A stretch of 64,000 bases of DNA. Source: an uncultured Methanobrevibacter sp. Its GTDB lineage: Archaea; Methanobacteriota; Methanobacteria; Methanobacteriales; Methanobacteriaceae. The translations under genes were made by a program, and so were the position numbers. The stretch lies in contig NZ_CACXXB010000003.1 of assembly GCF_902771435.1 (NCBI RefSeq), positions 1 to 64,000 of the forward strand, read 5' to 3'. Position 1 is the stretch's first letter. Each line of letters starts with the position of its first letter. Below are positions 11,047 through 30,630 of this stretch, in pieces. The notes beneath the pieces were generated by a model. It was not told the origin of the DNA and made no database searches. It worked only from the letters and a program-made list of their open reading frames with translations.

Positions 11047-11763
11047 TTATGAAATTTTATCAATTCCTTTAGTAGCAAGTAATTTTGTAAAGGAACCTTG
11101 AGGTTGCATTACGATATTTCCTTTGGAATATTCATTTAATGCAGTTTGTACCATTTTGCTCTTCTTATCTGGATCTTTTGTAAGGTTTGCAATTACTTTT
11201 GCAAGCTCCATTACCGCATCTCCTCTGGACATGTTTCCTTCAACATTTTCGTTACCAGGATATCCTTGGTATGCATCGTTTTGACGAACCATGTCTACTG
11301 CACTGAGGTTGCTTACTTCTCCATTTACGTATATAGGCCTAACACTATCAAGAATGCTGTCTATACCTTCATCATAAAGAAGAACTACTGCATCAGAGTG
11401 CATTCCAGTATTTGCTTCAACGATTTCCTGAGCATAGCGCATACCTACATCAACACCGTCCCAAAGACAGTCGTGCATCATCATACGTCCGCCAAGCCCT
11501 CCAGGCGCCGGTTGTGTAGGGTGTGACATTCCACCAGGGTATACTGGAGTGTAATTTACCAATGATCCATTTTCTAAATGAATCATAAATGCCATATCTA
11601 CTCCACCATTGGACTGTTCGTATTTATCTGAAGCTAATACAAGAATATCCTTACTTTCGGAAGTCAAATCCGGAGTCATGAATAAAGCTCCTGCAATAAG
11701 AGTCCATATTCCAATAAGAATAACAACAAGGATAGCTATAATTAGTTTCTTTGATCTAGTCAT
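11047..11763 (-). CDS. DUF4012-like membrane-anchored protein
   Basis: 238 residues. One N-terminal membrane segment (about 7-29, KLIIAILVVILIGIWTLIAGALF) anchors an outside domain. ILVLASDKYEQSNGGVDMAFMIHLENG and DAVVLLYDEGIDSILDSVRPIYVNGE are typical of the DUF4012 family, distantly like LytR-CpsA-Psr proteins. The function of archaeal members is unknown; a cell-surface role is plausible because the bulk of the protein lies outside. It is a single gene with its own terminator (11017-11041), and an A+T-rich promoter region on the minus strand at about 11764-11850. Confidence in the domain name is moderate. Confidence 0.65.
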   Translation of the reverse strand: MTRSKKLIIAILVVILIGIWTLIAGALFMTPDLTSESKDILVLASDKYEQSNGGVDMAFMIHLENGSLVNYTPVYPGGMSHPTQPAPGGLGGRMMMHDCLWDGVDVGMRYAQEIVEANTGMHSDAVVLLYDEGIDSILDSVRPIYVNGEVSNLSAVDMVRQNDAYQGYPGNENVEGNMSRGDAVMELAKVIANLTKDPDKKSKMVQTALNEYSKGNIVMQPQGSFTKLLATKGIDKIS

Positions 11764-12516: not shown

Positions 12517-12900
12517 GTGATGAATATGGAAAATAATAATCTTGAAAACAAAAATGATGATATGTGTGAAATTTTCGACTCTCATGAGGATGTTGTCAGT
12601 CGTGTAAAGAAACGCATACCTAATGAAAATGAATTCTCTGAGTTATCCGAATTCTTTAAGATATTTGGAAACCCGACAAGATTAAAAATTATTTCCCTGC
12701 TTTCAATCGAAGACTTGTGTGTTTGCGATATCTGTGAGGCGCTTGACCTGAACCAGACTACTGTTTCAAATCAGTTAAGGATATTGCGTGCAAACAATAT
12801 TGTCAAATATCAGAAGGAAGGAAAAATGGCAAGATATTCCCTTACAGACCTTCACATAGAAATGATTTACAAAGTAGGTTTTGAACATATATTAGAATAA
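12517..12900 (+). CDS. cadC: ArsR/SmtB-family metal-sensing repressor (CadC-like)
   Basis: 127 residues from GTG 12517; ATG codons at 12520 and 12526 are equally possible because no ribosome site is visible. The winged helix reads FKIFGNPTRLKIISLLSIEDLCVCDICEALDLNQTTVSNQLRILRANNIV. LCVCDI is the helix-3 Cys pair of CadC/ArsR sensors, and the N-terminal CEIFDSHEDVV resembles CadC, where the first Cys joins the metal site; the second N-terminal Cys of CadC is replaced here (D21, with H23 nearby). It likely releases DNA on binding Cd, Zn or Pb. The P-type ATPase gene follows 18 bases on. Confidence 0.85.
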   Translation: MMNMENNNLENKNDDMCEIFDSHEDVVSRVKKRIPNENEFSELSEFFKIFGNPTRLKIISLLSIEDLCVCDICEALDLNQTTVSNQLRILRANNIVKYQKEGKMARYSLTDLHIEMIYKVGFEHILE

Positions 12901-12918
12901 TTTTTAATTGGTGATATA

Positions 12919-15497: not shown

Positions 15498-15637
15498 AAG
15501 TAATACTTTTTTCTTATTTAATCGTAATTTTTATATAGTCTTAAATTTATAATATTTAATTGTAATATCTTTATGGAAATAAGTATTACTTATTTCTTAA
15601 TTTTTTATAATTTAGTAATAACTAAAGCGATATTACT
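15498..15637. promoter_or_regulatory. control region of importer 1: three AAGTA-W-TACTT-type boxes
   Basis: The 242 bases before the first binding-protein gene hold three related sites. An exact AAGTAATACTT lies at 15498-15508, just upstream of a TATA box (TTTTTATATAG, about 15528-15538). A 21-bp perfect inverted repeat centred on AAGTATTACTT lies at 15576-15596. A split version, AGTAATA-N10-TATTACT, lies at 15614-15637. Two sites are downstream of the presumed start, which fits repression. The same box recurs at every unit of this locus. Confidence 0.7.
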
Positions 15638-15677: not shown

Positions 15678-17297
15678 ATGGAAACAAAATATATTATAGC
15701 GGCAGTTGTAGCTATTCTTGCAATCGTAGGTATAGGTGCAATTGCTATGGGGGGCGGAAACACTCAACATGCACCTAATGAATTAGTGGCATGTGTTGCT
15801 GCTCATGGTGAAGAACCTGAGTTCGGTTTTGACCCTATGCATGGTTGGGGATACCATGATTCCGGAACAGAACCACTTATACAAAGTACAATTCTCAAAA
15901 GGGATAAAGACAATAATTTCGTAAATGATTTAGCTACAAATTACACTGTTTCTAGTGATTTCAAAACTTACACAGTTGATATCCGTGATGATGTCAAGTT
16001 CACTGACGGTTCAAAATTAACAGCAAAAGATGTAGCATTTTCATATAATAAAGCTAAAGAATTAGGTGAAGGGGCAGATTTAAGTTCCATGAATAATGCA
16101 ACAGCAGAAGGAAATAAAGTTACATTCACTCTCAACAAATCCGATTCTACATTTATCAACAAATTGACTGATGTCGGAATCGTGCCTGAAGCAAATTACA
16201 AAGAAGATTCATACGGACAAAACCCAATCGGTTCAGGTCCTTATAAATTAGCTCAATGGGATAAAGGACAACAATTCATCTTGGAAAAAAATCCTGATTA
16301 CTATGGAAGGGAACCATACTTTGATAAGATAACTAACTTATTCTTAGATCCTGATGCAGCATTTGCTGCAGTTAAAAACGGTGATGTGGACATTGCTGAA
16401 GTACAACTTGCATATGCAAATGAAACAATTGACGGATACCACTTAGAATACTTCGATTCTATTGATGTACGTGGAATTTCATTACCAACACAAATGAATA
16501 CTGGAAACTTAAGTGAAGACAATGTCACTATCGGTAACAATGTAACCGGAGACCCAGCTATCAGGGAAGCGTTAAACATTGGTATTAACAGACAATCCTT
16601 ATTAGATGGTGCATTCAACGGATACGGTAATGTTTCATACAATGGTGTTGCAAGTCAATTACCTTGGGCGTTCGGATCCACATTTAACGACAGTCAAGTG
16701 GACCAAGCTAAAAAAGTTCTCTCCGATGCAGGTTGGAATGATACTAACGGTGATGGAATTGTAGAGAAAAACGGTACCAAAGCTGAATTTTCAGTATACT
16801 ATAATTCAAAAGCAACCGAAAGACAAGCAATTGCAGTAGCTGTTGCAGAACAAGCTAAAGAAATTGGTATTCAAATTAATCCTGTAGGTGGAAGCTGGGA
16901 TGATATCGACCCTAATATATACAGTCAAGGAGTAGTATGGGGATTCGGTTCAGCAGATCCATTTGAAATTGAGCACCAATATGATTCAAGAGTGGCTTGT
17001 GTAGGTTATGACAACTCTGAAGGTCTTAATGATTCTGAAGTGGACTCATTAATTGACCAAGCTATGACCCAAGATTTAAACAGTTCATACTCCACTTGGT
17101 CTCAAGCAGCTCAAAAAGCTACATCACACTATCCATACTTATGGATTGGTACTGTAGACTACACTTACTTTGTAAGTAATGATTTAGACATTTCCAACAG
17201 CACACACCTCATTTACCCACACGGTGGAGACATATGGGGTAACATATACGATTGGAAACGTGTTAATGAAACTTCAAACACAACTGCAAGTAAATAA
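15678..17297 (+). CDS. ABC importer 1 substrate-binding protein (DppA/NikA/CntA type)
   Basis: 539 residues. A hydrophobic N-terminal segment (about 5-25) with no lipobox Cys anchors it to the membrane. The SBP family 5 fold follows: EPEFGFDPMHGWGYH, PLIQSTILKRDKDN, DLATNYTVSSDFKTYTVDIRDDVKFTDGSKLTAKDVAFSYNKA, IGSGPYKLAQWDKGQQFILEKNPDYYG. Family 5 covers peptides, nickel and metal-opine complexes (NikA, CntA). About half its residues match the second binding protein at 26551. The regulon box and the linked nicotianamine synthase gene favour a metal-chelate ligand over peptides, but that is inference. Confidence 0.88.
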   Translation: METKYIIAAVVAILAIVGIGAIAMGGGNTQHAPNELVACVAAHGEEPEFGFDPMHGWGYHDSGTEPLIQSTILKRDKDNNFVNDLATNYTVSSDFKTYTVDIRDDVKFTDGSKLTAKDVAFSYNKAKELGEGADLSSMNNATAEGNKVTFTLNKSDSTFINKLTDVGIVPEANYKEDSYGQNPIGSGPYKLAQWDKGQQFILEKNPDYYGREPYFDKITNLFLDPDAAFAAVKNGDVDIAEVQLAYANETIDGYHLEYFDSIDVRGISLPTQMNTGNLSEDNVTIGNNVTGDPAIREALNIGINRQSLLDGAFNGYGNVSYNGVASQLPWAFGSTFNDSQVDQAKKVLSDAGWNDTNGDGIVEKNGTKAEFSVYYNSKATERQAIAVAVAEQAKEIGIQINPVGGSWDDIDPNIYSQGVVWGFGSADPFEIEHQYDSRVACVGYDNSEGLNDSEVDSLIDQAMTQDLNSSYSTWSQAAQKATSHYPYLWIGTVDYTYFVSNDLDISNSTHLIYPHGGDIWGNIYDWKRVNETSNTTASK

Positions 17298-17308
17298 TTA
17301 AATAGAAG

Positions 17309-17331
17309 ATGATTTATTTCATATAAATCAT
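17309..17331 (+). terminator. attenuating hairpin after binding-protein gene 1
   Basis: Perfect 9-bp arms ATGATTTAT and ATAAATCAT with a 5-base loop, followed at once by a run of T, 11 bases after the stop. Placed between the binding protein and the permeases, it probably lowers downstream expression so that binding protein is made in excess. Confidence 0.65.
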
Positions 17332-17367
17332 TTTTTTATTCTTTTTTTTTAAAAACAAATTTACGAG

Positions 17368-18363
17368 ATGATTAAAATTAACAATAAGAAATTAGCTAAG
17401 TTTTTAGGATTAAAAGCTATTAGATTACTAATTTTATTAATTGTTATTGCCGCAATAAGTTTTATAATGATACAATTATCTCCAATTGACCCTGTTAAAG
17501 CTTATCTTGGACAAAGAATTGTCAGTCAGGAACAAATAGCAATCATAGGTGAATATTGGGGTACAAATTTATCTTTAGGTGAAAGGGTATTTGGTTGGCT
17601 TCAAACTTTGGCATCCGGAAGCATGGGTTTTTCATTGATTTATAGGGTGCCTGTAACTGAAGTTATTGTTCAAAAATTCACAGCTTCATTAACTCTCATG
17701 GTGGTTTCATGGGTAATTTCTGCAATTGTCGGTTTTGGTTTAGGCGTAATTGCAGGTGCAAAAGAAGGCAGCTGGGCAGATAAGGCAATTAAAACTTACT
17801 GTTACATATTGCAGTCCACACCTACCTTTTGGATAGGATTAGTATTTTTAATGGTTTTCTCAGTGTACTTGGGTTGGTTCCCGATTGGTCTTTCGGTTCC
17901 GATTGGACAGTTATCCGACACAGTGACATTTTGGCAATGGTTGTATAGATTGATATTGCCTGCGATAACTTTAAGTATTGTAGGAATTGCTTCTCTTACA
18001 ATGTATACAAGAGATAAGCTTATCAGTGTAAAAAGAAGCGATTATTTCTTGTTTGCACAAGCTAGAGGTGAAAGTTTCTGGGGCATAATCAAAAATCACG
18101 GAATAAGAAATATTTTGCTTCCTGCAATCACAATTCAGTTCCTGTCATTCAATGAGTTATTCGGTGGAACAATTCTTGTCGAACAGGTTTTTGCATATCC
18201 TGGTATCGGTCAGGCAACAGTGGCTGCTGGTTTAAGGTCTGATGTCCCATTATTGCTTGGTATTGTTATTATCAGCGCCATTTTCGTATTTATGGGAAAC
18301 TTTATTGCTGATTTGATTTACCAATATGTCGATCCAAGATTAAGGAGTGAGGATGATGAGTGA
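17368..18363 (+). CDS. ABC importer 1 permease (DppB/NikB/CntB type)
   Basis: 331 residues with about six TM segments. TM1 (16-38) is followed by SPIDPVKAYLGQRIV and an outside loop, then TLMVVSWVISAIVGFGLGVIAG, FWIGLVFLMVFSVYLGWFPIG and the cytoplasmic coupling loop DYFLFAQARGESFWGIIKNHGIRNILLPAI, the EAA motif of binding-protein-dependent permeases. The end, FGGTILVEQVFAYPGIGQATV, is the DppB-family signature. It forms the channel with the next gene's product. The 70-base gap before it contains the attenuator hairpin. Confidence 0.92.
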   Translation: MIKINNKKLAKFLGLKAIRLLILLIVIAAISFIMIQLSPIDPVKAYLGQRIVSQEQIAIIGEYWGTNLSLGERVFGWLQTLASGSMGFSLIYRVPVTEVIVQKFTASLTLMVVSWVISAIVGFGLGVIAGAKEGSWADKAIKTYCYILQSTPTFWIGLVFLMVFSVYLGWFPIGLSVPIGQLSDTVTFWQWLYRLILPAITLSIVGIASLTMYTRDKLISVKRSDYFLFAQARGESFWGIIKNHGIRNILLPAITIQFLSFNELFGGTILVEQVFAYPGIGQATVAAGLRSDVPLLLGIVIISAIFVFMGNFIADLIYQYVDPRLRSEDDE

Positions 18364-19207
18364 ACTTCCATGGTATAATAGGGGATTGTTCAGTTCTTTA
18401 AACTTAAGGCAAAAAACACTTTTGACTATAGGACTTACAGGATTTGTTTTACTAATTATTTTCATTAGCGGATGGATGATTGATGCTAATTTACCTACTG
18501 ACTTTACCATAAAAATGAAACCTCCGTCATTTGAACATCCTTTTGGGACTGACTGGATGGGTAGAGACATGTTCATCAGAACATTGAAAGGTTTAAGTTT
18601 AAGTATTATGATTGGTTTGGCCGCTTCAGTTCTTTCCAGTATAATAGCTACAATCTTAGCTTTTATTGCAAGTATGAACAAGTTTTGTGATGAATTTGTG
18701 TCCTGGTTAATCGATTTGTTTGCATCAATACCTCATATCCTATTGATTATGATGATATCTATCGGATTGGGTAAAGGGGCATTTGGTGTAATGATGGCAG
18801 TTGCATTTACCCACTGGGTAAACCTGACAAGGGTGCTCAGAGCTGAAGTATTGCAAATCAATACTTCTGAATATGTTGCATTATCTAAAAGATTTGGTAA
18901 AAGCAAATTATGGATTGCCAGACAGCATATTTTGCCTTTGGTGTTGTCTCAGATATTTGTAGGAACATTATTGGTGTTCCCGCATGCGATTATGCACGAG
19001 TCAAGTGTAACATTCCTAGGATTTGGTTTATCACCACACGAACCGGCAATTGGTATAATATTGTCTGAATCAATGACCTATCTTGCAATGGGCGCTTGGT
19101 GGTTGGCATTCTTCCCAGGTCTTGCATTATTGATAGTTGTACTGTTGTTTGATATCATAGGGGATAATTTAAAACGACTGGTGGATCCTTCACAGGCAAA
19201 TAACTAG
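18353..19207 (+). CDS. ABC importer 1 permease (DppC/NikC/CntC type)
   Basis: 284 residues from ATG 18353, chosen for its AAGGAG site; GTG 18347 and ATG 18356 are alternatives. The gene overlaps the previous one by 11 bases. The N-terminal membrane segment and HPFGTDWMGRDMFIRTLKGLSLSIMIGLAAS are the OppC-type signature. SEYVALSKRFGKSKLWIARQHILPLVLSQI is the EAA coupling motif, and ESSVTFLGFGLSPHEPAIGIILSES closes the last TMs. About five or six TM segments. It pairs with the previous permease. Confidence 0.92.
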   Translation: MMSELPWYNRGLFSSLNLRQKTLLTIGLTGFVLLIIFISGWMIDANLPTDFTIKMKPPSFEHPFGTDWMGRDMFIRTLKGLSLSIMIGLAASVLSSIIATILAFIASMNKFCDEFVSWLIDLFASIPHILLIMMISIGLGKGAFGVMMAVAFTHWVNLTRVLRAEVLQINTSEYVALSKRFGKSKLWIARQHILPLVLSQIFVGTLLVFPHAIMHESSVTFLGFGLSPHEPAIGIILSESMTYLAMGAWWLAFFPGLALLIVVLLFDIIGDNLKRLVDPSQANN

Positions 19208-19219
19208 ATTGGTGATATT

Positions 19220-20167
19220 ATGGGAAATTTATTAGAAGTAAATAATTTATCTATATCCTTTACGCAATATGTTCAGGGACTGAACAGGCATGATTTAAAG
19301 GTAATATCCGATTTGACAATTGATGTTGATGAAGGGGAAATAGTCGCCGTATTGGGTTCCAGCGGTTCTGGTAAAAGTCTTTTGGCTCATTCAATCTTAG
19401 GCATTTTACCTTACAATGCTCATGTTACCGGTGAGATTAGATATGAGGGGGAAGTTTTAAATCAGGAGTTGAAGGAAAAATTAAGGGGTAAGGAAATCTG
19501 TTTAATACCTCAGTCAGTAAATTTCTTAGACCCCCTTATGAAGGTTTCCGAACAGGCAATCGGTGAATGCAAGGATGAAAAGGAACATGCCGAGAAAAAA
19601 ATAAAGCAAAGAGAAATTTTCGCCAAATACGGTTTGGATGAAAGTGTTGATGATTTATATCCCTTTGAATTGTCCGGAGGAATGGCCAGAAAAGTATTAC
19701 TGTCTACCGCATTAATTGGTGATCCAAAGTTATTGATTGCTGATGAACCAACACCAGGTCTTGATAAAAAGAGTGTTGAAGAGACAATCGCTGATATTAA
19801 AAACCTAAAGGAAAACGGTAAAGGTGTTCTTTTAATTACTCACGAAATTGATGTGGCATTAAAAACAGCAGATAGGATTGCAATATTTTATTCAGGATAC
19901 GTAATCGAAATCAATAAAGTAGAAAACTTCAGAAATGCGGATAATCTATTGCATCCATACACTAAAGCCTTAATTAATTCACTTCCAAGAAACGGTTTTC
20001 ATCTTACTGAAGGTGTTCAGCCACTTGATGAGGTTTCAGGATGTCCTTACTGGGAAAATTGTCCGATTCGCATAGATAAATGCGAGAAAACCAAACCTGA
20101 GTTGGTTGAGCATAATGGTGTAATGATTAGATGTTTCAATTTCAAGGAGGTTAATGATGGATCTTAA
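19220..20167 (+). CDS. ABC importer 1 ATPase (DppD/NikD/CntD type)
   Basis: 315 residues. Walker A GSSGSGKS (about 51-58), Q-loop LIPQSVNFLDPL, signature LSGGMARK, Walker B LLIADEPTPGLD and H-loop LLITHEID. The C-terminal extension has four Cys (SGCPYWENCPIRIDKCEKTKPEL and RCF), as in Opp/Dpp/Nik ATPases where such Cys clusters may bind metal. The start follows GGTGA. It is closely similar to the ATPase at 23852, both opening with LLxVxNLSISFxQYxxGLNxxDLKVI. It works with the short ATPase that overlaps its 3' end. Confidence 0.93.
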   Translation: MGNLLEVNNLSISFTQYVQGLNRHDLKVISDLTIDVDEGEIVAVLGSSGSGKSLLAHSILGILPYNAHVTGEIRYEGEVLNQELKEKLRGKEICLIPQSVNFLDPLMKVSEQAIGECKDEKEHAEKKIKQREIFAKYGLDESVDDLYPFELSGGMARKVLLSTALIGDPKLLIADEPTPGLDKKSVEETIADIKNLKENGKGVLLITHEIDVALKTADRIAIFYSGYVIEINKVENFRNADNLLHPYTKALINSLPRNGFHLTEGVQPLDEVSGCPYWENCPIRIDKCEKTKPELVEHNGVMIRCFNFKEVNDGS

Positions 20168-20768
20168 AGCGAACAATATCTCTTTTTCATATAATAAGAA
20201 GAGACAAATATTGAAGGATGTTTCATTATCTCTTAACAGCAATCAAATCATAGGTCTGATTGGAGATAGTGGTAGCGGCAAATCCACTTTATGTAAAATA
20301 TTATCCGGCCATATCACTCATTATGGTGGAGAGGTGACAATTGATGGTAAAAAAATACCTGATAAGGATTTTTATCCTGTGCAATTAATTTTCCAGCATC
20401 CAGAAAAGACAATGAATCCTAAATGGAAGATGAATAAAGTGTTAAATGAATCATGGAATCCTCCTAAAGATTTAAAAGATACTTTCGGTTTAAAAGATTC
20501 CTGGTTAACTCGTTGGCCTAATGAACTTTCCGGTGGAGAATTGCAACGTTTCAGTATATTGAGGGCTCTTAATCCAAAAACAAGATTTATCATTGCAGAT
20601 GAGATTTCCACTATGCTTGATGCCGTAACTCAAGTGCAAATATGGGAGGCTCTCATTAATCATTGTAAATCCAATAATATTGGTATATTGGCTGTTAGCC
20701 ATGATGAAGAGCTGCTGAATGTATTGTGTGATGATATTTTACTTTTCAATGAAATAAATAATCTCTAA
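20157..20768 (+). CDS. ABC importer 1 ATPase (NikE/CntF type, short)
   Basis: 203 residues from ATG 20157, placed 6 bases after AAGGAGG; ATG 20154 is closer to it. Walker A GDSGSGKST, signature LSGGELQR, Walker B FIIADEISTMLD and H-loop AVSHDEE. It stops right after the nucleotide-binding domain and lacks the C-terminal extension of DppF. This matches NikE/CntF-like ATPases of metal importers better than peptide ATPases. It overlaps the previous gene by 11 bases. The paralogue is at 23248. The stop codon lies inside the arm of a terminator hairpin. Confidence 0.9.
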   Translation: MDLKANNISFSYNKKRQILKDVSLSLNSNQIIGLIGDSGSGKSTLCKILSGHITHYGGEVTIDGKKIPDKDFYPVQLIFQHPEKTMNPKWKMNKVLNESWNPPKDLKDTFGLKDSWLTRWPNELSGGELQRFSILRALNPKTRFIIADEISTMLDAVTQVQIWEALINHCKSNNIGILAVSHDEELLNVLCDDILLFNEINNL

Positions 20769-20868: not shown

Positions 20869-22239
20869 ATGTTAAGTGATGATTCAGCTAATAGTGTAGA
20901 TTTAATGCTTCAAAATCCCAAAAAAGCATTAATAAGAATGTCTATACCTCTGATAATTTCATTGATTATTACTAGCTTTTATAATTTGATAGATGCATTC
21001 TGGGTGTCCGGTCTTGGAGCCGATGCACTTGCGGGTGTCGGATTTTTCACACCGATTTTCATGATTCTTGTAGGTTTTGGAAATGGTTTGGGTTCTGGTG
21101 CCGCTTTTGCTTTGTCAAAATATCTCGGTGAGGACAACAAACCAAAGGCTGATAATGCTTCTGTCCATTCTATTTTAATTGACATTGTCGTTTCATTAAT
21201 TATGACTGTGCTGCTTTTGCTTTCATTAAATCCGATTTTAAATGCAATGGGTGCCGGCCAGACCATCGGATATGCAACAGATTATGGTGTAATAATCATT
21301 CTTGGTTCTGTTTTCATAATCTTTTCAAATGCTTTATATGGTATATTTAGGGGGGAAGGTGATACTACCCGTCCGATGTATGCAATGATTGCATCCGCTG
21401 TTTTAAACATGATTTTGGACCCTATTTTCATTTACACTTTAAACTTCGGAGTTAAGGGAGCGGCCATTGCAACTATAATGTCCTCAATATTTGTTATTTT
21501 GATATTGTTATACTGGTTTTATATCAAAAAAGACACTTATTTGAAGCCAAATATGGTCAATTTCAAATTTAAAGGGGATATTTCTAAAGATATTGTTAAA
21601 GTAGGAATTCCGGCAAGCATTCAACTTTTAAATAATGCATTTTTTGCAGCGGTTTTCTCAGCGCTCCTGACATATGTCGGCTCAACGGATTCTGTGGCGG
21701 TTTATTCGACAGGATGGAGAATAGTGACAATCGGAACAACACCTCTTCTAGCTATTGGAACAGCATTGATCAGCGTTATTGCAGCAAATTATGGTGCTCA
21801 GAAATATGGTAATATTCAAATAGCTCACAGGTATGCGATGAAGGTATCGATTGTCATTGCATGTATTGTTGCAGTTCTCACTAATGTTTTTGCGGGAGAT
21901 ATTGCATCTGTATTTGCATCAAGCGGCAGCAGTGTCAGAATTGCTTCAGAGCTCACCAGCTTTCTTTCATGGATTGTAATCTACTATCCTACAATGGCGG
22001 TTGGAGTTGCATCAACTTATGTGTTCCAGGGAATCGGAAAAGGAATAACTGCAATGTTTCAGACAATTATGAGGGAAACAGGCTTTACAATATTTTTCGC
22101 AGTTTTATTGGGTGTTGTTCTTGGATATGGCGTATGGGGAGCCTGGATGGGAATTGTTTTGGGCGAAGTTGTCTCAAACAACATTACCATGGTTTGGGCC
22201 GACCTGCAAATTAAAAGATTGATGAATAACCACAATTGA
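20869..22239 (+). CDS. MATE-family efflux transporter
   Basis: 456 residues with about twelve TM segments. It starts PKKALIRMSIPLIISLIITSFYNLIDAFWVSGLGADALAGVGFFTPIFMI, the usual MATE first helices, and has the YGIFRGEGDTTRPMYAMIASAVLNMILDPIFIY signature between TM4 and TM6. MATE proteins push organic cations and secondary metabolites out using H+ or Na+. Between a metal-chelate importer operon and a nicotianamine synthase gene, it is the best candidate exporter of the metallophore, like MFS-type CntE in staphylopine loci. No ribosome site is visible at the ATG, and a terminator precedes the gene, so it may have its own near-leaderless transcript or rely on read-through. Confidence 0.9.
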   Translation: MLSDDSANSVDLMLQNPKKALIRMSIPLIISLIITSFYNLIDAFWVSGLGADALAGVGFFTPIFMILVGFGNGLGSGAAFALSKYLGEDNKPKADNASVHSILIDIVVSLIMTVLLLLSLNPILNAMGAGQTIGYATDYGVIIILGSVFIIFSNALYGIFRGEGDTTRPMYAMIASAVLNMILDPIFIYTLNFGVKGAAIATIMSSIFVILILLYWFYIKKDTYLKPNMVNFKFKGDISKDIVKVGIPASIQLLNNAFFAAVFSALLTYVGSTDSVAVYSTGWRIVTIGTTPLLAIGTALISVIAANYGAQKYGNIQIAHRYAMKVSIVIACIVAVLTNVFAGDIASVFASSGSSVRIASELTSFLSWIVIYYPTMAVGVASTYVFQGIGKGITAMFQTIMRETGFTIFFAVLLGVVLGYGVWGAWMGIVLGEVVSNNITMVWADLQIKRLMNNHN

Positions 22240-22391: not shown

Positions 22392-23213
22392 TTATTCTAT
22401 TTTTCTGATTAAAACAGAAGTGTTGTTGGTTTTGCCTGATGGCAACATCATGACTTCCTTGTGGAAACCTCTTGTATCCTTATCAAGAACAGGTGAGTAT
22501 AAAATTGCTCTCATTCCTGTGTAGGTTCTGTAAATTACCGGCGTATTCTCATCAACATATTCCCAGATATTTGCAAAGACCCTATCTTTAGGTTCCGCCA
22601 ATGCGGCAACCATCAATATGTCATATTCCAAATCTTTGATTGCTGTTTCATCACCGACAACAATTTTGATATCATTTTCAAGACCCAATCTTTTTAAAAC
22701 TTTCACTGATAGTTCGGCGACATCTGCCTGTTGTTCTATGCCTATACATTTGCAGCCGAATACTTTGTTGAACATTATCAAAGTTAATGGCAATGGTCCT
22801 GAGCCCAAAAATACAAAGGTTTTTTCTTCATTGAATTTAGCTAATTTACTTTCATTTTCAACAAGGCCGATATATCTGTCATAAAAATGGAAGGAATCCA
22901 AGGTTTCAACGGGATTATCTGATTCTAAAATTTTTAGGGCATTTTCGGTTTCCAGTCTTGCACCGATATAGACATAAAATTTTCTGATTAATTTTAGTGC
23001 CTTATTCATTTTTTCATCATCTAAAATATGCTTTGCAGAATCAAAATCAATAGTCTTATCGTGTGCAATTATTTCTACATCATCCAATATTTCAATGATT
23101 TCATCTATATTGATGTCATCCAACTTTGAATTTCCGTATTTGTCCAAATCCCCATAGGCAGATAATTTATTTGCGATTTCTTCAAGTTTTCCCCAATATT
23201 TATAACAGCTCAT
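22392..23213 (-). CDS. nicotianamine synthase (thermonicotianamine-type)
   Basis: 273 residues from ATG 23213, preceded by AGGTGA; the upstream ATG 23228 has no ribosome site. It matches archaeal nicotianamine synthase (the Methanothermobacter enzyme) along its length: SCYKYWGKLEEIANKL, IDFDSAKHILDDEKMNKALKLIRKFYV, the SAM-site FVFLGSGPLPLTLIMF, GIEQQADVAELSVKVLKRLGL, VGDETAI, MVAALAEPKDRVF, VIYRTYTGMRAILYSPV and LPSGKTNNTSVLI. The family moves aminocarboxypropyl groups from SAM onto each other or onto glutamate, giving metal chelators. It is third in a minus-strand unit after two importer ATPases. A generic methyltransferase label would be wrong, since the family does not transfer methyl. 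Confidence 0.93.
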   Translation of the reverse strand: MSCYKYWGKLEEIANKLSAYGDLDKYGNSKLDDINIDEIIEILDDVEIIAHDKTIDFDSAKHILDDEKMNKALKLIRKFYVYIGARLETENALKILESDNPVETLDSFHFYDRYIGLVENESKLAKFNEEKTFVFLGSGPLPLTLIMFNKVFGCKCIGIEQQADVAELSVKVLKRLGLENDIKIVVGDETAIKDLEYDILMVAALAEPKDRVFANIWEYVDENTPVIYRTYTGMRAILYSPVLDKDTRGFHKEVMMLPSGKTNNTSVLIRKIE

Positions 23214-23247: not shown

Positions 23248-23862
23248 TTAAATGTTATTGATATCTTTCAGATATATCTTTTCATCACAGATTGTTTCAA
23301 CTAGAGGCATGTCGTGACTTACGAGAATGAATCCCATTTTTCTTTCTTTCACAATTTTTAACACAGAATCTATGATTTGCACCTGTGTAATTGCATCAAG
23401 CATTGTTGTCATTTCGTCAGCTATTAAAAATTTTGTATTTGGGTTTAGCGATCTTACGACAGAAAACCTTTGAAGTTCTCCACCTGATAATTCCTGCGGA
23501 AATCTTGTCAGCCATGATTTCTGAATACCGAACTCCTTTAGAATATCATCAGGCACGTCCCATGATTCTTTCAAAACTTGTTCCATTTTCCATTTTGGAT
23601 TCATTACCTTTTCAGGGTGCTGATAAATTAATTGCACAGGTTTAAATCCTTTTTTGGGAAGAGGTTTTCCATCTAGGGTCACGTTGCCTTCGTATTTTGG
23701 AATATATCCGGATAATATTTTACACAGTGTTGATTTTCCGCTTCCACTATCTCCAATCAAACCAATAACCTTATTGCTGTCCAGTTCGAGATTAACGTCT
23801 TTTAGCAAATATTTTTTAGCGGAAGGATATTTGAATGTAATGTTTTCTGCTTTAAGTTTCAT
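23248..23862 (-). CDS. ABC importer 2 ATPase (NikE/CntF type, short)
   Basis: 204 residues; near twin of the ATPase at 20157. Walker A GDSGSGKST, Q-loop LIYQHPEKVMNPKWKM, signature LSGGELQR, Walker B FLIADEMTTMLD and H-loop VSHDM. It also ends right after the nucleotide-binding domain. It overlaps the preceding gene (23852) by 11 bases and is followed 34 bases later by the nicotianamine synthase gene, so one transcript carries chelator synthesis and uptake power. The matching permeases are on the plus strand at 28229 and 29211. Confidence 0.9.
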   Translation of the reverse strand: MKLKAENITFKYPSAKKYLLKDVNLELDSNKVIGLIGDSGSGKSTLCKILSGYIPKYEGNVTLDGKPLPKKGFKPVQLIYQHPEKVMNPKWKMEQVLKESWDVPDDILKEFGIQKSWLTRFPQELSGGELQRFSVVRSLNPNTKFLIADEMTTMLDAITQVQIIDSVLKIVKERKMGFILVSHDMPLVETICDEKIYLKDINNI

Positions 23863-24811
23863 TTTCTACACCTTCTTCATATTTAAAGCATCTTACTTTT
23901 TTCTTTCCAAGGTCAATTAGTTCAGGCCTTTCGTCCTTGCATCTGTCAAATCTCATTTCGCATCTGTCATAATATGGACAGCCCTGTGATATTTCCCCAT
24001 GCAATGGCTGATGTCCTTTGATTAATTCAAACCCGTTTGCAGGAAGTGCTTTGTACAATGCTTTTGTGTATGGGTGAAGCAAGTTTTCACCATCTCCTGA
24101 AAAGTCTTTGTTTTCTGCAATTTCGATTACAAATCCTGAATAGAAAATTCCAATCCTGTCGGCGATTTCCAGTGCTGCATGAATATCGTGTGTGATGAGA
24201 AGAACGCCTACTCCGTCTTCTTTCATATGTTTAAAATGATTTAATGTTTCTATTACTGTTTTTTCGTCAAGTCCTGGTGTCGGTTCGTCTGCAACAACAA
24301 GTTTGGGATTTGATAGGAGTGCGGTTGAAACAAGTACTCTTCTGGCCATTCCTCCGGATAATTGAAATGGATACATTTCATCCACTTCGGGGCCAAGATT
24401 ATAATGTTCAAAGATTTCCCTTTGTTTTATTTTCTTTTCTTTTTTTTCTGCATCGTTTTCGGTATTTCCTATGGCTTGGTCTGAGATTTTCATCAACGGA
24501 TCTAGGAAGTTCACAGATTGTGGAATTAAAGCAATTTCCTTTCCTCTGAGTTCCTCTTTGTCCTCTTGGGATAGTTCTTTTCCTTTGTATTTAATTTTTC
24601 CATTTTGCCTTGCATTTTCAGGAAGTATTCCAAAAATCGCATGGGCAAGCAAACTCTTTCCGGAACCACTTGAACCTAAAACTGCTAAAATTTCACCTTC
24701 AGATATATCTAAAGTTAAATCAGTGATGACTTTTAAATCCCTTTGATTTAATCCCTTTGTATATTGTATAAATGAAATTGAAACATTTTCTACATCTAAT
24801 AATTTTTCCAT
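23852..24811 (-). CDS. ABC importer 2 ATPase (DppD/NikD/CntD type)
   Basis: 319 residues, paralogue of the ATPase at 19220. Walker A GSSGSGKS, Q-loop LIPQSVNFLDPLMKISDQAIG, signature LSGGMARR, Walker B LVVADEPTPGLDEKT and H-loop LITHDIH. The C-terminal Cys cluster is CPYYDRCEMRFDRCKDERPEL plus RCF. It is the first gene of the minus-strand unit (this, 23248, nicotianamine synthase), divergent from the acetyltransferase gene at 24957. The shared 145-base control region contains regulon boxes. Confidence 0.92.
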   Translation of the reverse strand: MEKLLDVENVSISFIQYTKGLNQRDLKVITDLTLDISEGEILAVLGSSGSGKSLLAHAIFGILPENARQNGKIKYKGKELSQEDKEELRGKEIALIPQSVNFLDPLMKISDQAIGNTENDAEKKEKKIKQREIFEHYNLGPEVDEMYPFQLSGGMARRVLVSTALLSNPKLVVADEPTPGLDEKTVIETLNHFKHMKEDGVGVLLITHDIHAALEIADRIGIFYSGFVIEIAENKDFSGDGENLLHPYTKALYKALPANGFELIKGHQPLHGEISQGCPYYDRCEMRFDRCKDERPELIDLGKKKVRCFKYEEGVENET

Positions 24812-24896: not shown

Positions 24897-24939
24897 AAGT
24901 ATTACTAATTACATAAATTTAAGCATAAGTGTAATACTT
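24897..24939. promoter_or_regulatory. divergent control region with two regulon boxes
   Basis: AAGTATTACTA (24897-24907) and a relaxed copy ending TAATACTT (24927-24939) lie between the minus-strand ATPase/nicotianamine synthase unit and the plus-strand acetyltransferase gene. A TATA-like ATAAATTTA lies between the boxes, and the second falls about where the acetyltransferase transcript should begin. Confidence 0.6.
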
Positions 24940-24956: not shown

Positions 24957-25517
24957 ATGAAGGTCACTATTAGAGAGTTAACCGATGATTCTACAGAGAT
25001 TATTAATGTTCAAAAGTTTTTATTTTCCATGATAAAACAGGAATTTGGATATGATTATGTTCCTGAGTGGCATCAGGACATTGTAAATATGGATGAATAT
25101 TATGTTTCTCCAAAAAGGAATAATTTTTTTGTTGCCTATACTGAAACCGGTGAAATCATTGCAACAATTGGAATAAGAGCTTATGATAAGGACTTTCCTG
25201 AATTCAGGCATTTGTATTCAAATGATGCCACTTCAAGCATATGGAGGCTGTTTGTTGATAGGAGATGTCGCCGCTGCGGTTTGGCTTCAAAAATGTTCAG
25301 CATAGCAGAGAATTTTGCATATGAAGCGGGTTTTGACAATATCTATTTGCATACTCATAAAACACTGCCCGGTGCATTGGAGTATTGGACAAAAATGGGC
25401 TTTGTTGTGGCATTGGATTCTAATGATGAACTTGAAACAGTTCATATGGATAAAAAAATAGTTGGTTTAGACATTAACCCATTGGCCAATGATTATTCAT
25501 ATGCGGTAAAATTATAA
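24957..25517 (+). CDS. GNAT-family acetyltransferase 1
   Basis: 186 residues with a GNAT fold. The acetyl-CoA pocket motif A reads SIWRLFVDRRCRRCGLASKMFSIAENFAYEAGF (the RxxGxA pyrophosphate loop is present as RRCGLA), followed by IYLHTHKTLPGALEYWTKMGFV (motif B). A paralogue lies at 30127; the two share NNFFVAY/SNFFIAA, IATIGIRAYDKDF/VATAAIRPYDRDF, SIWRL and YLHTH. The gene is divergent from the nicotianamine synthase unit and shares its regulon boxes. I infer that it acylates the chelator, a precursor or a rival ligand; the family alone does not tell. Confidence 0.85.
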   Translation: MKVTIRELTDDSTEIINVQKFLFSMIKQEFGYDYVPEWHQDIVNMDEYYVSPKRNNFFVAYTETGEIIATIGIRAYDKDFPEFRHLYSNDATSSIWRLFVDRRCRRCGLASKMFSIAENFAYEAGFDNIYLHTHKTLPGALEYWTKMGFVVALDSNDELETVHMDKKIVGLDINPLANDYSYAVKL

Positions 25518-26204
25518 TTTTTTAATATATTTTTGGGTATGGGGGCAGGCAAAGATGCACTTTCCACATACCGTATCCGGTTTTCCCAAATTTTCTTCAG
25601 ATACCATTAATGCATATTTTTCACATTTTTTATCATCGTAAAAGTCATTTCTTTTTAAGGTATAGTTCCATTCCCTTCCGCTTATTGCTCCTCCAAGGCA
25701 TGCGTCCCGGCATTCCATACATTTTCCGCATCTTGATTTGAGTATTGGCTTTCCAACTTCAAGGGGAGCATCTGTCAGGACGGATGATAATCTAAGTGCT
25801 GATCCGTAATCTTTTGTTGTAAATAATGCTGATTTGCCAATCCATCCTAGGCCTGCACGTGTAGCTATTGTCTTGTGAGGCAGTTCAAATGAATTGAATT
25901 CTCCAAAATCAGTTCCCAATCTCTTTTTTGTCTGTGCATAAGCATTATATCCATTATCTATTAAAAATTCCTCACATTTCATTCCAAGAGCATCTAATCG
26001 GGTATTTAAACTGACCAATTCATTAACATATTCTTGGGTTGGTGCATTTTCCATGTTTCGTATAATCTCTTTGGGATAGGTTATATAGAATACAACTCCT
26101 TTTTTTAATTCGGGTCGTGGTGTGAAATTGGTGATATCGGCATATCCCACTTCCGTTGCACCGTTTTTTAATAGATATTTTTTAAGTTTAAGAGATAGAG
26201 CCAT
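25512..26204 (-). CDS. QueG-like iron-sulfur protein
   Basis: 230 residues, shorter than bacterial QueG (about 300-380). An N-terminal alpha/beta part (EVGYADITNF, KKGVVFYITYPKEII, TIATRAGLGWIGKSALFTTKDYGSALRLSSVLTDAPL) matches the epoxyqueuosine reductase group. Two 4Fe-4S motifs follow, CGKCMECRDAC and CGKCIFACPHTQ, each completed by other Cys. Bacterial QueG uses cobalamin; archaea make archaeosine and not queuosine, so the archaeal substrate is unclear. A regulon box lies 39 bases upstream of its start, linking it to the metal locus. The stop overlaps the end of the converging acetyltransferase gene by 6 bases. Confidence 0.8.
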   Translation of the reverse strand: MALSLKLKKYLLKNGATEVGYADITNFTPRPELKKGVVFYITYPKEIIRNMENAPTQEYVNELVSLNTRLDALGMKCEEFLIDNGYNAYAQTKKRLGTDFGEFNSFELPHKTIATRAGLGWIGKSALFTTKDYGSALRLSSVLTDAPLEVGKPILKSRCGKCMECRDACLGGAISGREWNYTLKRNDFYDDKKCEKYALMVSEENLGKPDTVCGKCIFACPHTQKYIKKL

Positions 26205-26550
26205 GGCAGAATATTTGAATGCAATATTATTTAAATTTAAGGAAAGTATTACTTTTGATTATATTTCTATTTTCTTTTTGTCTAAAATGATGATTTATAA
26301 TTTTGAGAAATGTAATATTTTTTTATAATGTTATTTTCCAATGTTTATTTTTTAATTTAATTTTTTTTAAAATAGATTCAAATTCAAATAAATTTTAAAA
26401 GTAATAAATACATTTTTATACATACATTTTAAAAATAATATTGATATTAAAATAATTTTAAAAAGTATTACTTTATAAGCAATTTTTAACTAAAAAGTAT
26501 TACTTTTATTTTAATATGCTTAATAATATTTATGGAAATGGTGAAAAGTT
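26205..26550. promoter_or_regulatory. divergent control region with three regulon boxes
   Basis: 346 bases without a gene. AAAGTATTACTTT at 26243-26255 sits upstream of the TATA-like region of the QueG-like gene. Exact AAGTATTACTT copies at 26463-26473 and 26495-26505 are 32 bp apart (about three turns) and flank a TATA box (TTTATAAG, 26472-26479) of the second binding-protein gene. A partial copy (AAAAGTAATAAATAC) lies near 26397. The rest is A+T-rich. Confidence 0.75.
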
Positions 26551-28173
26551 ATGGAAAAGAAAACAATGATGATTATAGGTGCTGTCGCAGCAATCATTGT
26601 TGTTGCTGTTGCCGCTTTTGCATTGATGGGAGGTTCAAATGATAGTGACCCTACCCATTTAACCGTAGCAGCTCACAGTAACATCAAAGAACCTGAATCC
26701 GGTTTCAACCCGCTTACCGGTTGGGGATGCGGACACCAAAACTATAATCCGTTGGTACAAAGCTGTTTATTTAAAACAGATAAAAACGGAACAATTGTTC
26801 CAGATTTAGCTACTGGTTATTCAATCAGTAGCGATGGTAAAACATGGACTGTAAACTTAAGAAACGATGTTAAATTCTCAGACAATTCAACATTCAATGC
26901 TAAAGATGTTGAAACCACATTCAACACTGCTAAAAAAACCGAAACCGACTTGGATTTAACAAATCTCGCAAATGTAACTGCTAAAAATGATACCTGTGTT
27001 GAATTTAATTTAGTCGAACCAAGATCAACATTTATTTACGATTTAAGATATGTTGGTATTGTGCCTGAAGAATATGATAACAACACTTATGGCCAAAACC
27101 CTATCGGTACCGGACCTTACGTATTGGACCACTGGGACAAAGGTCAACAGGCTATTTTCAAAGTAAATGATAATTACTATGGTGATAAACCATACTTCAC
27201 TCAAATTACCTTATTATTCCCTGAAGAATCTACCTGGTTAGAACTCGCTAAATCAGGTCAAGTGGATGTAGTGCCTGTTGCAACTTCTGCATTAAACCAA
27301 TCTGTTGACGGATATCAGTTTGTTGAAAAATCTGCAGGTAGGGCACAAGGTGTATCCTTCCCTTATCTTGAAGATACAGGTAATGTAACCAACCAAAGCG
27401 GTTGGAAAATTGGTAACAACGTAACTGCTGATAAGGCTATCAGAGAAGCGTTAAACGTCGGTGTTGACCGTCAAAAAATGTGTGACGAAATATTCTCAGG
27501 ACATGCTTCTCCGGAATACACCAGTGTAGATACAAGAGACTATGCTAACAATGCTTCCAAAGTTCAAGACGGAAATGTGACCCATGCAAAACAAATCTTA
27601 AGTGAAGCTGGTTGGAACGATACTGATGGTGATGGAATCGTAGAGAAAAACGGTACAAAAGCATCATTTGATTTATACTACCCTCCAGACTATCTTGACA
27701 GACAATCTTTATCCACCGTATTTGCTGAACAAGCAAAAGAAATTGGAATTGAAGTAAACCTCAAAGGTGCTGATTGGGATACAATTTATGCTAATATGTA
27801 CAGCTCTGCTGCATTAATGCAACAAACCTCTCCAGACCCATATAAATCCATCTATCAGCAATACCACAGTAAAGATGCTGATGAATTCTATATGAACCCT
27901 GGTTTATATAACAATTCTGAATCTGATAAATTGATGGAAGATGCTATGCATTCAACAGATTTAAATGCTTCTGATGCATTATGGGCTCAATCCGCTTTGG
28001 TTAACAACGGAGGATGGGGTCCTGCTGGAGATGCTCCATTTGCATGGCTTGTAAACTATGACTACAACTATTTCATCAAAAATGGAATTGACATCGGCGA
28101 ACAACCTGACGGTTTAGGAAATGATATTTTAATTAACATCTGTGATTGGACAAGAACCAATTCCACAGCATAA
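26551..28173 (+). CDS. ABC importer 2 substrate-binding protein (DppA/NikA/CntA type)
   Basis: 540 residues. The N-terminal membrane anchor (about 5-27) has no lipobox Cys. The SBP family 5 body reads EPESGFNPLTGWGCGHQNYNPLVQSCLFKTDKNG, DLATGYSISSDGKTWTVNLRNDVKFSDNSTFNAKDV, IGTGPYVLDHWDKGQQAIFKVNDNYYG and VDRQKM. It has the same length and layout as the binding protein at 15678 but differs in the pocket regions, so the two probably prefer different metal-chelate forms or metals. A GGTGAA site precedes the ATG. The A+T-rich tail before the permease (28174-28228) has T runs that may attenuate expression. Confidence 0.88.
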   Translation: MEKKTMMIIGAVAAIIVVAVAAFALMGGSNDSDPTHLTVAAHSNIKEPESGFNPLTGWGCGHQNYNPLVQSCLFKTDKNGTIVPDLATGYSISSDGKTWTVNLRNDVKFSDNSTFNAKDVETTFNTAKKTETDLDLTNLANVTAKNDTCVEFNLVEPRSTFIYDLRYVGIVPEEYDNNTYGQNPIGTGPYVLDHWDKGQQAIFKVNDNYYGDKPYFTQITLLFPEESTWLELAKSGQVDVVPVATSALNQSVDGYQFVEKSAGRAQGVSFPYLEDTGNVTNQSGWKIGNNVTADKAIREALNVGVDRQKMCDEIFSGHASPEYTSVDTRDYANNASKVQDGNVTHAKQILSEAGWNDTDGDGIVEKNGTKASFDLYYPPDYLDRQSLSTVFAEQAKEIGIEVNLKGADWDTIYANMYSSAALMQQTSPDPYKSIYQQYHSKDADEFYMNPGLYNNSESDKLMEDAMHSTDLNASDALWAQSALVNNGGWGPAGDAPFAWLVNYDYNYFIKNGIDIGEQPDGLGNDILINICDWTRTNSTA

Positions 28174-28228
28174 ATATTCTTTCCTTTTTTATTTTTTTTT
28201 TAAAAATTTTTAAAGGGGGTTTACTTCA

Positions 28229-29218
28229 TTGAATAAACAGAAAATAGCTAAATATTTTGGTTTCAAATTAGTACGTTTTATTATATTGATGATTGCTGTT
28301 GCAATATTTAGTTTTATTTTATTAGATTTATCCCCTATTGATCCGGTTAGTGCTTATCTAAAAGGTGCTGCGGTATCTGAAGCACAAAGACAAATTTTAC
28401 AGCAGTATTTCGGCACTAATGTTCCTCTGCCGACAAAAATCTATCACTGGCTATTGGATTTGATTCAGGGCAATCTGGGAACTTCGTTGATATATCGTGC
28501 TCCTGTTATTGATGTTATTTTTGAAAAATTCACTGCTTCTGTTGTGTTAATGGCAATTTCATGGATATTGAGTGGTGTTTTAGGTTTTATTTTAGGAGTA
28601 TTGGCCGGTAAAAATAAAGGGTCATGGATTGATAAAGCGGTTAAGGTTTATTGTTATGCAATTCAATCTGCTCCGTCCTTTTGGGTTGGAATGCTTATTT
28701 TAATGGTATTTTCAGTTTATTTAGGATGGTTCCCAATAGGATTTGGTGTTCCTATTGGTGTTAGAAGTACCGATGCAACATTTATGGAGTGGGCAACAAG
28801 GCTTGTTCTTCCTACATTAACTTTGAGTTTAGTTGGTCTGGCACCGATTGCAATGTACACACGTAATGAATTGGTTCAGGTTTTATCTTCTGATTATGTG
28901 TTGTTTGCAAAATCCAGAGGTGAAAAAGGTTGGGATTTAGTGGTAAATCACGGTATTAGAAATATAATGCTTCCTGCAATTACATTACAGTTCTTATCAT
29001 TCAGTGAACTGTTCGGTGGTGCAGTACTTGTTGAGCAGGTATTTTCCTATCCGGGTATTGGTCAAACTGCAGTAGCTGCAGGTCTTCAAAATGATGTGCC
29101 TCTGTTTTTGGGAATTGTTATTTTCAGTGCAATATTTGTATTTGTAGGTAACCTGCTTGCGGATATTTCATATTACTTCATAGACCCTAGAATCAAGGAG
29201 AGTGAGTTCAGTGATTAG
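28229..29218 (+). CDS. ABC importer 2 permease (DppB/NikB/CntB type)
   Basis: 329 residues from a TTG start with a strong AAAGGGGG site 9 bases upstream. It matches the permease at 17368 throughout: SPIDPVSAYLKGAAV, VLMAISWILSGVLGFILGVLAG, FWVGMLILMVFSVYLGWFPIGFGVPIG, coupling loop DYVLFAKSRGEKGWDLVVNHGIRNIMLPAITLQFLSFSELFGG, and LVEQVFSYPGIGQTAV. About six TM segments. No ATPase gene follows in this operon; the ATPases encoded on the minus strand at 23248-24811 are the natural partners. Confidence 0.92.
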   Translation: MNKQKIAKYFGFKLVRFIILMIAVAIFSFILLDLSPIDPVSAYLKGAAVSEAQRQILQQYFGTNVPLPTKIYHWLLDLIQGNLGTSLIYRAPVIDVIFEKFTASVVLMAISWILSGVLGFILGVLAGKNKGSWIDKAVKVYCYAIQSAPSFWVGMLILMVFSVYLGWFPIGFGVPIGVRSTDATFMEWATRLVLPTLTLSLVGLAPIAMYTRNELVQVLSSDYVLFAKSRGEKGWDLVVNHGIRNIMLPAITLQFLSFSELFGGAVLVEQVFSYPGIGQTAVAAGLQNDVPLFLGIVIFSAIFVFVGNLLADISYYFIDPRIKESEFSD

Positions 29219-30068
29219 AAAACAGAAAGCAGATGATAAAAAACAATGGTTTTTATACTCTGCAAATCTCAGAACAAAAACTCTTGTTATTATTGCAATA
29301 TCCATAATAGTTATTGTATCAATATTCGTTTCCGGATATTTCATAAGGGATATTCCGTCAAACTTTGCCAGTGCAAATCAGATGCCTTCCCTAGAGCATC
29401 TTTTCGGTACCGATTGGATGGGAAGGGACATGTTTCAGCGAACAATCGCAGGACTTGGATTAAGTATTATGGTAGGTTTCATCGCATCTGCAGTAAGTAC
29501 CTGCATTTCTGTAATTTTAGGATTATTTTCAAGTTTCAACAGGTTTGCAGATGAGTTTGTTGCAGGAATCATTGATTTATTCGGTTCAATTCCTCATATT
29601 CTCTTAATCATTCTTGTTTCCATCATGTTCGGTGGTGGAGTATATGGTGTTATTATGGGGGTAGGTTTAACTCACTGGACACCTCTTGCAAGGGTTTTAA
29701 GATCTGAAGTAAAGGAAATCAGAACCAAGGAATATATTCATTTGGCAGAAAATCTAGGAAAATCTAAGGTATGGATTGCACTTAAGCACATATTGCCTTT
29801 GGTTGTATCCCAAATTATTGTTGGGGTAATTTTAATGTTTCCACATGCAATTATGCACGAAGCGGCAATTACATTTTTAGGATTTGGATTGCCTCCTCAT
29901 GAGCCTGCAATTGGTGTGATATTGTCAGAATCCATGCACTACTTATCTTCAGGATATTGGTGGCTAGCATTTTACCCTGGTGTATCTTTACTGCTTGTGG
30001 TCTTGTTATTTGACCTGATTGGGGAAAATGTTGAAAAATTGCTCAATCCTGAAACTGCTCAGGAATAA
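29211..30068 (+). CDS. ABC importer 2 permease (DppC/NikC/CntC type)
   Basis: 285 residues if it starts at GTG 29211, ten bases after AAGGAG; GTG 29202 is another in-frame option but sits against the ribosome site. OppC-type signature HLFGTDWMGRDMFQRTIAGLGLSIMVGFIAS, EAA coupling motif KEYIHLAENLGKSKVWIALKHILPLVVSQI, and AAITFLGFGLPPHEPAIGVILSES. Close paralogue of the permease at 18353. The gene overlaps the upstream permease by 8 bases. Confidence 0.9.
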   Translation: MIRKQKADDKKQWFLYSANLRTKTLVIIAISIIVIVSIFVSGYFIRDIPSNFASANQMPSLEHLFGTDWMGRDMFQRTIAGLGLSIMVGFIASAVSTCISVILGLFSSFNRFADEFVAGIIDLFGSIPHILLIILVSIMFGGGVYGVIMGVGLTHWTPLARVLRSEVKEIRTKEYIHLAENLGKSKVWIALKHILPLVVSQIIVGVILMFPHAIMHEAAITFLGFGLPPHEPAIGVILSESMHYLSSGYWWLAFYPGVSLLLVVLLFDLIGENVEKLLNPETAQE

Positions 30069-30088
30069 GAGAAATTTAAATATTTCTC
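30069..30088 (+). terminator. terminator after importer 2 permeases
   Basis: Arms GAGAAAT and ATTTCTC with a 6-base loop, right after the stop codon, followed by a long T-rich run. It lies between the permease gene and the second acetyltransferase gene. Confidence 0.65.
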
Positions 30089-30126
30089 TTTTTATTTTAT
30101 TTTTTTTTTTAAATTTTAGTGATATC

Positions 30127-30630
30127 ATGAATATTGAAATTAGAGAAATCAAGAAAGATGAATCTGAAATAAATGCTGTTAAAGATTTTTTATTCAGTCA
30201 GATACATAAAGAGTATCATATAGGTCCAACTCCAAAATTTCACTATGATATTTTTGATTTGGAGGATTATTACATTGTACCTGCTAAAAGCAATTTCTTT
30301 ATAGCTGCTGACGGCGGAAAAATCGTTGCAACTGCTGCTATAAGGCCTTACGATAGGGATTTTGAATTTTTCAGGGGAATTTATACTCCGGAAGATACTG
30401 CAAGCATATGGAGATTGATGGTGGATAGGAATTACAGAAGAAATGGTATTGCAGGAGTCCTTGTTGAACTTTTGGAGAATTTTGCCAGAGATGAGGGTTA
30501 TAGTCGGATATACCTGCATACTCACAGATATCTTGAAGCGGGCCTCCCGTTTTGGAAGTCTGCAGGATTTGAAATAACTGTTGAGGAAGACGACTATGAT
30601 GAAACAACTCATATGGTGAAATATCTTTGA
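30127..30630 (+). CDS. GNAT-family acetyltransferase 2
   Basis: 167 residues from ATG 30127. A longer frame from 30019 overlaps the permease and is discarded. Motif A reads SIWRLMVDRNYRRNGIAGVLVELLENFARDEGY (RRNGIA loop) and motif B IYLHTHRYLEAGLPFWKSAGFEI. Paralogue of the acetyltransferase at 24957; each is linked to one transport unit. A terminator precedes it, so it is either read through from the importer or has its own start. Substrate unknown; acylation of the chelator or its precursor is my inference from context. Confidence 0.85.
   Translation: MNIEIREIKKDESEINAVKDFLFSQIHKEYHIGPTPKFHYDIFDLEDYYIVPAKSNFFIAADGGKIVATAAIRPYDRDFEFFRGIYTPEDTASIWRLMVDRNYRRNGIAGVLVELLENFARDEGYSRIYLHTHRYLEAGLPFWKSAGFEITVEEDDYDETTHMVKYL

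Follow-up and report, generated by a model that had tools for sequence, protein, structure and literature searches.

Paralogous GNAT acetyltransferases accompany a nicotianamine synthase and Opp/Nik-type importers in a Methanobrevibacter genome and may act on a nickel ligand

The window, a stretch of 64,000 nucleotides from an uncultured Methanobrevibacter sp., carries two paralogous GNAT acetyltransferase genes (GNAT1 and GNAT2) among genes for a nicotianamine synthase (NAS), two Opp/Nik-type importers and a MATE exporter. The genes and promoter elements are located as follows.

15498–15591, two boxes upstream of importer 1 (motif scan)
15678–20768, plus strand, importer 1 (solute-binding protein SBP1, permeases B and C, ATPases D and F)
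20869–22239, plus strand, MATE exporter (PF01554, 175 bits)
22392–23213, minus strand, NAS, orthologue of MtNAS (thermonicotianamine synthase; PF03059, 80.3 bits; PDB 3fpe, E 9.5e-89)
23248–23862, minus strand, Opp/Nik-type ATPase F of the NAS unit (model matches)
23852–24811, minus strand, Opp/Nik-type ATPase D of the NAS unit (oligo_HPY domain; NikD, OppD and CntD-F models below their cut-offs)
24899–24937, double box GTATTAC-N25-GTAATAC between ATPase D and GNAT1, common to GNAT1 and the ATPase D–ATPase F–NAS unit
24957–25517, plus strand, GNAT1, the family copy divergent to the NAS/ATPase unit (186 aa; PF00583; AlphaFold mean pLDDT 90)
25512–26204, minus strand, 4Fe-4S protein (Fer4), convergent with GNAT1 (PF13484; distant similarity to QueG and reductive dehalogenases)
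26244–26254, single box upstream of the 4Fe-4S gene (motif scan)
26463–26505, double box upstream of SBP2 (motif scan)
26551–28173, plus strand, SBP2, the NikA/CntA-like solute-binding protein of importer 2 (PF00496, 235 bits)
28229–29218, plus strand, importer 2 permease B (family models)
29202–30068, plus strand, importer 2 permease C (family models)
30127–30630, plus strand, GNAT2, the importer-linked duplicate behind permease C (167 aa; PF00583)

Read from GNAT1, the order is the convergent 4Fe-4S gene, SBP2, permease B, permease C and GNAT2, while ATPase D, ATPase F and NAS form a divergent unit on the minus strand. ATPase F probably serves importer 2, because in relatives such as L158, L159 and L102 ATPases come downstream of SBP2 and its permeases. 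These positions agree with the original prediction, which placed GNAT1 divergent to the synthase unit under a common box and GNAT2 at the end of importer 2, after its permeases. The accompanying claim of one GNAT per transport unit fails, since importer 1 has none. A long T-rich stretch (30068–30127) separates permease C from GNAT2, so that co-transcription of GNAT2 is not certain. The MATE protein is a possible export route. Elsewhere in the window, 12517–15435 encodes an ArsR-type regulator and, after it, a P-type ATPase whose N-terminal region is very rich in His and Asp, and 11047–11763 a DUF4012 protein; similar-looking ORFs of 239 aa adjoin solitary GNATs in L143 and L145.

Both acetyltransferases pass the Pfam cut-off of 20.7 bits for Acetyltransf_1 (GNAT1 50.9 bits, GNAT2 67 bits) and are 44% identical over 166 residues; a whole-genome search finds no third member of the family. 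The acetyl-CoA loop (RRCGLA in GNAT1, RRNGIA in GNAT2) and the YLHTH motif are intact in each, as had been noted beforehand, and loop and fold together place the proteins in the GNAT superfamily (for the GNAT1 model, matches to many GNATs reach probability 1.00). NCBIfam supplies no family name, with no match for GNAT1 and sub-threshold matches only for GNAT2. Reading the acceptor from the structure was attempted and abandoned: the AlphaFold model of GNAT1 is confident, its Foldseek neighbours are generic GNATs (~12–21% identity), and with so generic a fold and the best solved structure only ~19% identical the structure does not name the acceptor. Eleven residues (H39, D41, Y49, R74, D77, R97, E118, Y130, L131, T133 and W144) are invariant over 53 diverse family members and common to GNAT1 and GNAT2. 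D41, Y49, R74, D77, R97 and E118 would suit a small charged acceptor. This constancy, seen between the two paralogues and among genera, sits poorly with the suggestion that the enzymes create self-specific versions of a chelator. In principle the target could instead be a protein, a regulator or nickel enzyme acetylated in nickel starvation, with the linkage to NAS reflecting shared regulation only. We consider this improbable; the closest curated or solved models do include RimI, Naa50 and Ard1 types, but GNAT2 scores 25 bits with the RimI model TIGR01575 against a cut-off of 86.4.

The window NAS aligns over nearly its full length with PDB 3fpe, the structure of MtNAS crystallised with thermonicotianamine. 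It belongs with the NAS-like aminobutanoyl transferases (PF03059) and lies below the CntL equivalog (35.9 bits vs 350). SBP2 scores 178 bits with NikA and 137 bits with CntA, both under the equivalog cut-offs. The 4Fe-4S protein, whose matches to TIGR00276 and TIGR02486 are sub-threshold, is encoded beside GNAT1 in relatives as well; in one of these (L117, genome G036) a second Fer4 homologue occupies the place that GNAT2 has in its relatives.

The promoters of the locus share a sequence element. Scanning the window for AAGTATTACTT yields 14 sites where 2.1 would be expected, most of which fall within the promoters of SBP1, GNAT1/NAS, Fer4 and SBP2. In relatives GTAWTAC, often paired at 32 bp, lies upstream of 67 of 78 GNATs (150 sites vs 3.5 expected under a first-order Markov null). 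Neither GNAT2 nor the MATE and TruA genes have a clear excess of boxes in relatives; GNAT2 lacks its own box here and in all 13 relatives (0 of 13), and MATE has one in 1 of 16. This genome has six copies of the exact double box (reversed control pattern, 0), preceding two hmd genes, a cbiM gene, a CobN-like gene, GNAT1/NAS and Fer4/SBP2, and genome G043 has four, ahead of hmd and hmdC, cbiM, SBP2 and GNAT1. Transcription of hmd and levels of Hmd rise under nickel limitation (PMC3087415 and PMC12350162). On the strength of these target genes we infer that the box is nickel-responsive, and nickel is the likely metal of the GNAT/NAS system. The link to hmd is lineage-limited, the double box (one mismatch allowed) being found in 8 of 24 hmd promoters against 0.02 expected. 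Some box matches in other genomes (L272 and L284) lie away from metal genes. A link of the box to cobalt was also considered and dropped: by a hand count of a small sample, the double box is in 0 of 14 listed promoters of cbiM genes with products starting MHIMEG and in 2 of 4 of those with products starting MHIPDG. Among GNATs remote from both NAS and importer the box is still frequent, a point in favour of a protein target.

The GNAT family is present in 112 of 152 genomes of the phylum. Within the taxonomic family (139 genomes), 104 have GNAT relatives and 95 have PF03059 matches. At least 30 of the 93 genomes with NAS have a GNAT within ~2 kb of it, a lower bound counted from the matches listed; about two thirds have no listed GNAT within that distance, and most of these have one elsewhere. 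The two genes may be divergent, convergent or co-directional. Gene maps show bare NAS–GNAT pairs with no adjoining Opp importer in several genera, NAS–GNAT–importer runs in genomes of group g9, and GNATs beside importers without NAS. The GNAT1–Fer4–SBP2–permease B–permease C–GNAT2 module of the window recurs with a spacing of ~5.1 kb. In the Methanothermobacter-type genomes (f2 g18) GNAT is divergent from and adjacent to NAS in 8 of 8 examined. The translated NAS of two of them (L127 and L128) is, compared by eye, the 3fpe sequence, so the adjacency includes a genome encoding the crystallised MtNAS. In two others (L129:9417–10219 and L130:9735–10534) NAS is split into two overlapping ORFs, which looks like a frameshift, and the GNAT keeps its place next to it. 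Two further NAS genes are irregular: that of G042 is split in two by a 401-aa ORF on the opposite strand (L091:5563–7800), and that of a fen euryarchaeote MAG, which has CbiM and NikR genes for neighbours, has a frame that looks broken (L228:5560–8308).

GNAT presence tracks that of NAS or an Opp-type importer. A GNAT is found in 77 of 80 genomes with NAS and SBP, in 18 of 25 with SBP only (several of them complete assemblies), in 8 of 15 with NAS only and in 1 of 19 with neither, counts that ignore shared ancestry and assembly incompleteness and rest on an SBP search that also captures importer 1-type proteins. The sole exception in the last class (G115) encodes ATPases of an importer next to its GNATs. 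Counting against action on a ligand are the 10 NAS genomes that have no GNAT and the 15 of 90 mapped GNATs with neither NAS nor importer within three genes. The repeated pairing of GNAT with NAS or importer in varied arrangements, a bacterial MAG included, is more than shared regulation of a protein-modifying enzyme requires.

In the tree, built by a quick method with SH-aLRT as the only support, GNAT2 falls in one clade of 14 importer-linked rows (SH-aLRT 100); GNAT1-type rows form a separate clade, and NAS-adjacent members are scattered over the tree. We propose that GNAT1 is the ancestral general copy and GNAT2 a duplicate that became established behind the importer 2 genes. Some GNATs inactivate amine toxins, and the position of GNAT2 beside an importer would fit an enzyme that disarms toxic or rival compounds entering by that route. 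This explanation appears highly improbable, given the bare NAS–GNAT pairs with no adjoining importer and the single set of conserved residues throughout the family.

Outside the archaea, a Peptococcaceae MAG (L177) with an archaeal-type NAS has a strong match to the GNAT family (profile A1, E 1.1e-41). The end of its NAS contig and the start of its GNAT contig share 119 identical bases, and the overlap puts the GNAT ~187 bp downstream of NAS in the same direction; joining two MAG contigs in this way gives good, not final, evidence of a pair. CbiM, CbiQ and an ATPase are encoded upstream of NAS, the G+C content is 57–61%, and the GNAT keeps most of the invariant residues, with D replacing H39. 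The association of this GNAT family with archaeal NAS, which the original prediction proposed to look for, is found in several genera, in two archaeal families and in one bacterial MAG. In Syntrophaceticus schinkii (L165) and a Syntrophomonadaceae MAG (L166) an archaeal-type NAS is likewise followed by a GNAT; these were rejected as family members, the A1 profile having no match in either genome, and belong to a different family. Desulfosarcina cetonica (L234:9980–12586) has two tandem NAS-like ORFs; the ORFs after them look, by eye, like a D-amino-acid or racemase-type enzyme.

The accounts of MtNAS consulted describe the synthase alone and do not mention an adjacent acetyltransferase. Loci of the Cnt/staphylopine type share with the window an NAS-like enzyme, permeases and ATPases of the Opp type, and a binding protein that here is related to NikA and CntA at scores below their cut-offs; they differ in that here the NAS is of the archaeal class and has a recurrent GNAT partner, and the CntM dehydrogenase (PF10100) was found in 0 of 60 genomes of the order, in a search run without a positive control. 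The original prediction held that known opine loci have no such enzyme; in fact, acetyltransferases (PF13673, PF00583 or PF13302) are predicted in some CntM clusters and with Vibrio CntM2 pairs, and further modification of the zincophore has been suggested (PMC7438024). Downstream of NAS in one Methanothermobacter-type locus (L123) are an FmdE-like protein, CobN and a predicted DUF2162 transporter, possibly the CobN1 and MTBMA_c10530 that, according to PMC12350162, are upregulated with NikR1 in nickel-limited Methanothermobacter. A literature search, with many subscription papers outside its reach, found no report of archaeal NAS–GNAT pairing, no paper on N-acetylnicotianamine and none connecting Methanobrevibacter with nicotianamine and nickel.

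Thermonicotianamine arises when two aminocarboxypropyl groups are transferred to glutamate, which by our reasoning leaves one primary amine. This amine may be likened to the position on which CntM acts in opine pathways, and its acetylation could either cap the ligand or weaken its grip on the metal. Capping would make the GNAT the last enzyme of ligand synthesis, acetylating the terminal amine in the position of CntM, perhaps before export by MATE. The third enzyme of opine pathways condenses the intermediate with a keto acid (PMC7438024), and the search for PF10100, run without a positive control, gave no match in 60 genomes of the order. The NAS–GNAT pair without an adjoining Opp importer looks ancestral, and bare pairs fit capping and release equally well. 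What separates the two is the retention of GNAT in the importer-bearing genomes that have no NAS, some of them complete: this speaks for an enzyme that works on ligand in the cytoplasm, whether made or imported, and against capping as a biosynthetic step alone. The tree, too, ties GNAT2 to the importer rather than to NAS. Release is therefore ranked first and capping second, and we judge capping to be rather unlikely. Of the metallophore role that had been suggested for the pair, association with the ligand system is strengthened by linkage, co-occurrence and the shared box, and pure biosynthetic tailoring is weakened.

Release of nickel is the reading that we tentatively prefer, at a little under an even chance: GNAT1 and GNAT2 would be N-acetyltransferases of a nickel-acquisition regulon that act on a thermonicotianamine-type ligand. 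NAS would make the chelator from glutamate and SAM, and the cytoplasm would receive the ligand, or its nickel complex, either from this synthesis or by uptake through the Opp/Nik-type importers. The GNAT would acetylate the cytoplasmic ligand, most plausibly at the free primary amine, and the consequent loss of metal affinity would free the nickel and retire the ligand.

More broadly, and with somewhat greater reserve, a dedicated acetyltransferase may be an ancient part of nicotianamine-type nickel acquisition in archaea, unloading or capping both self-made and scavenged thermonicotianamine as part of a regulon for nickel starvation whose mark is GTAWTAC boxes spaced at 32 bp. The same literature search found no account of how methanogens use MtNAS or thermonicotianamine; the GNAT, the metal importers and a box common to hmd and cbiM bring a role of NAS in nickel supply within reach of direct tests. 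Should the ligand prove to be the substrate of the GNAT, an acetylation step would be added to the nicotianamine-type metallophores and a route for unloading nickel suggested. Genomes that have importer and GNAT without NAS would be candidate scavengers of a ligand made by their neighbours.
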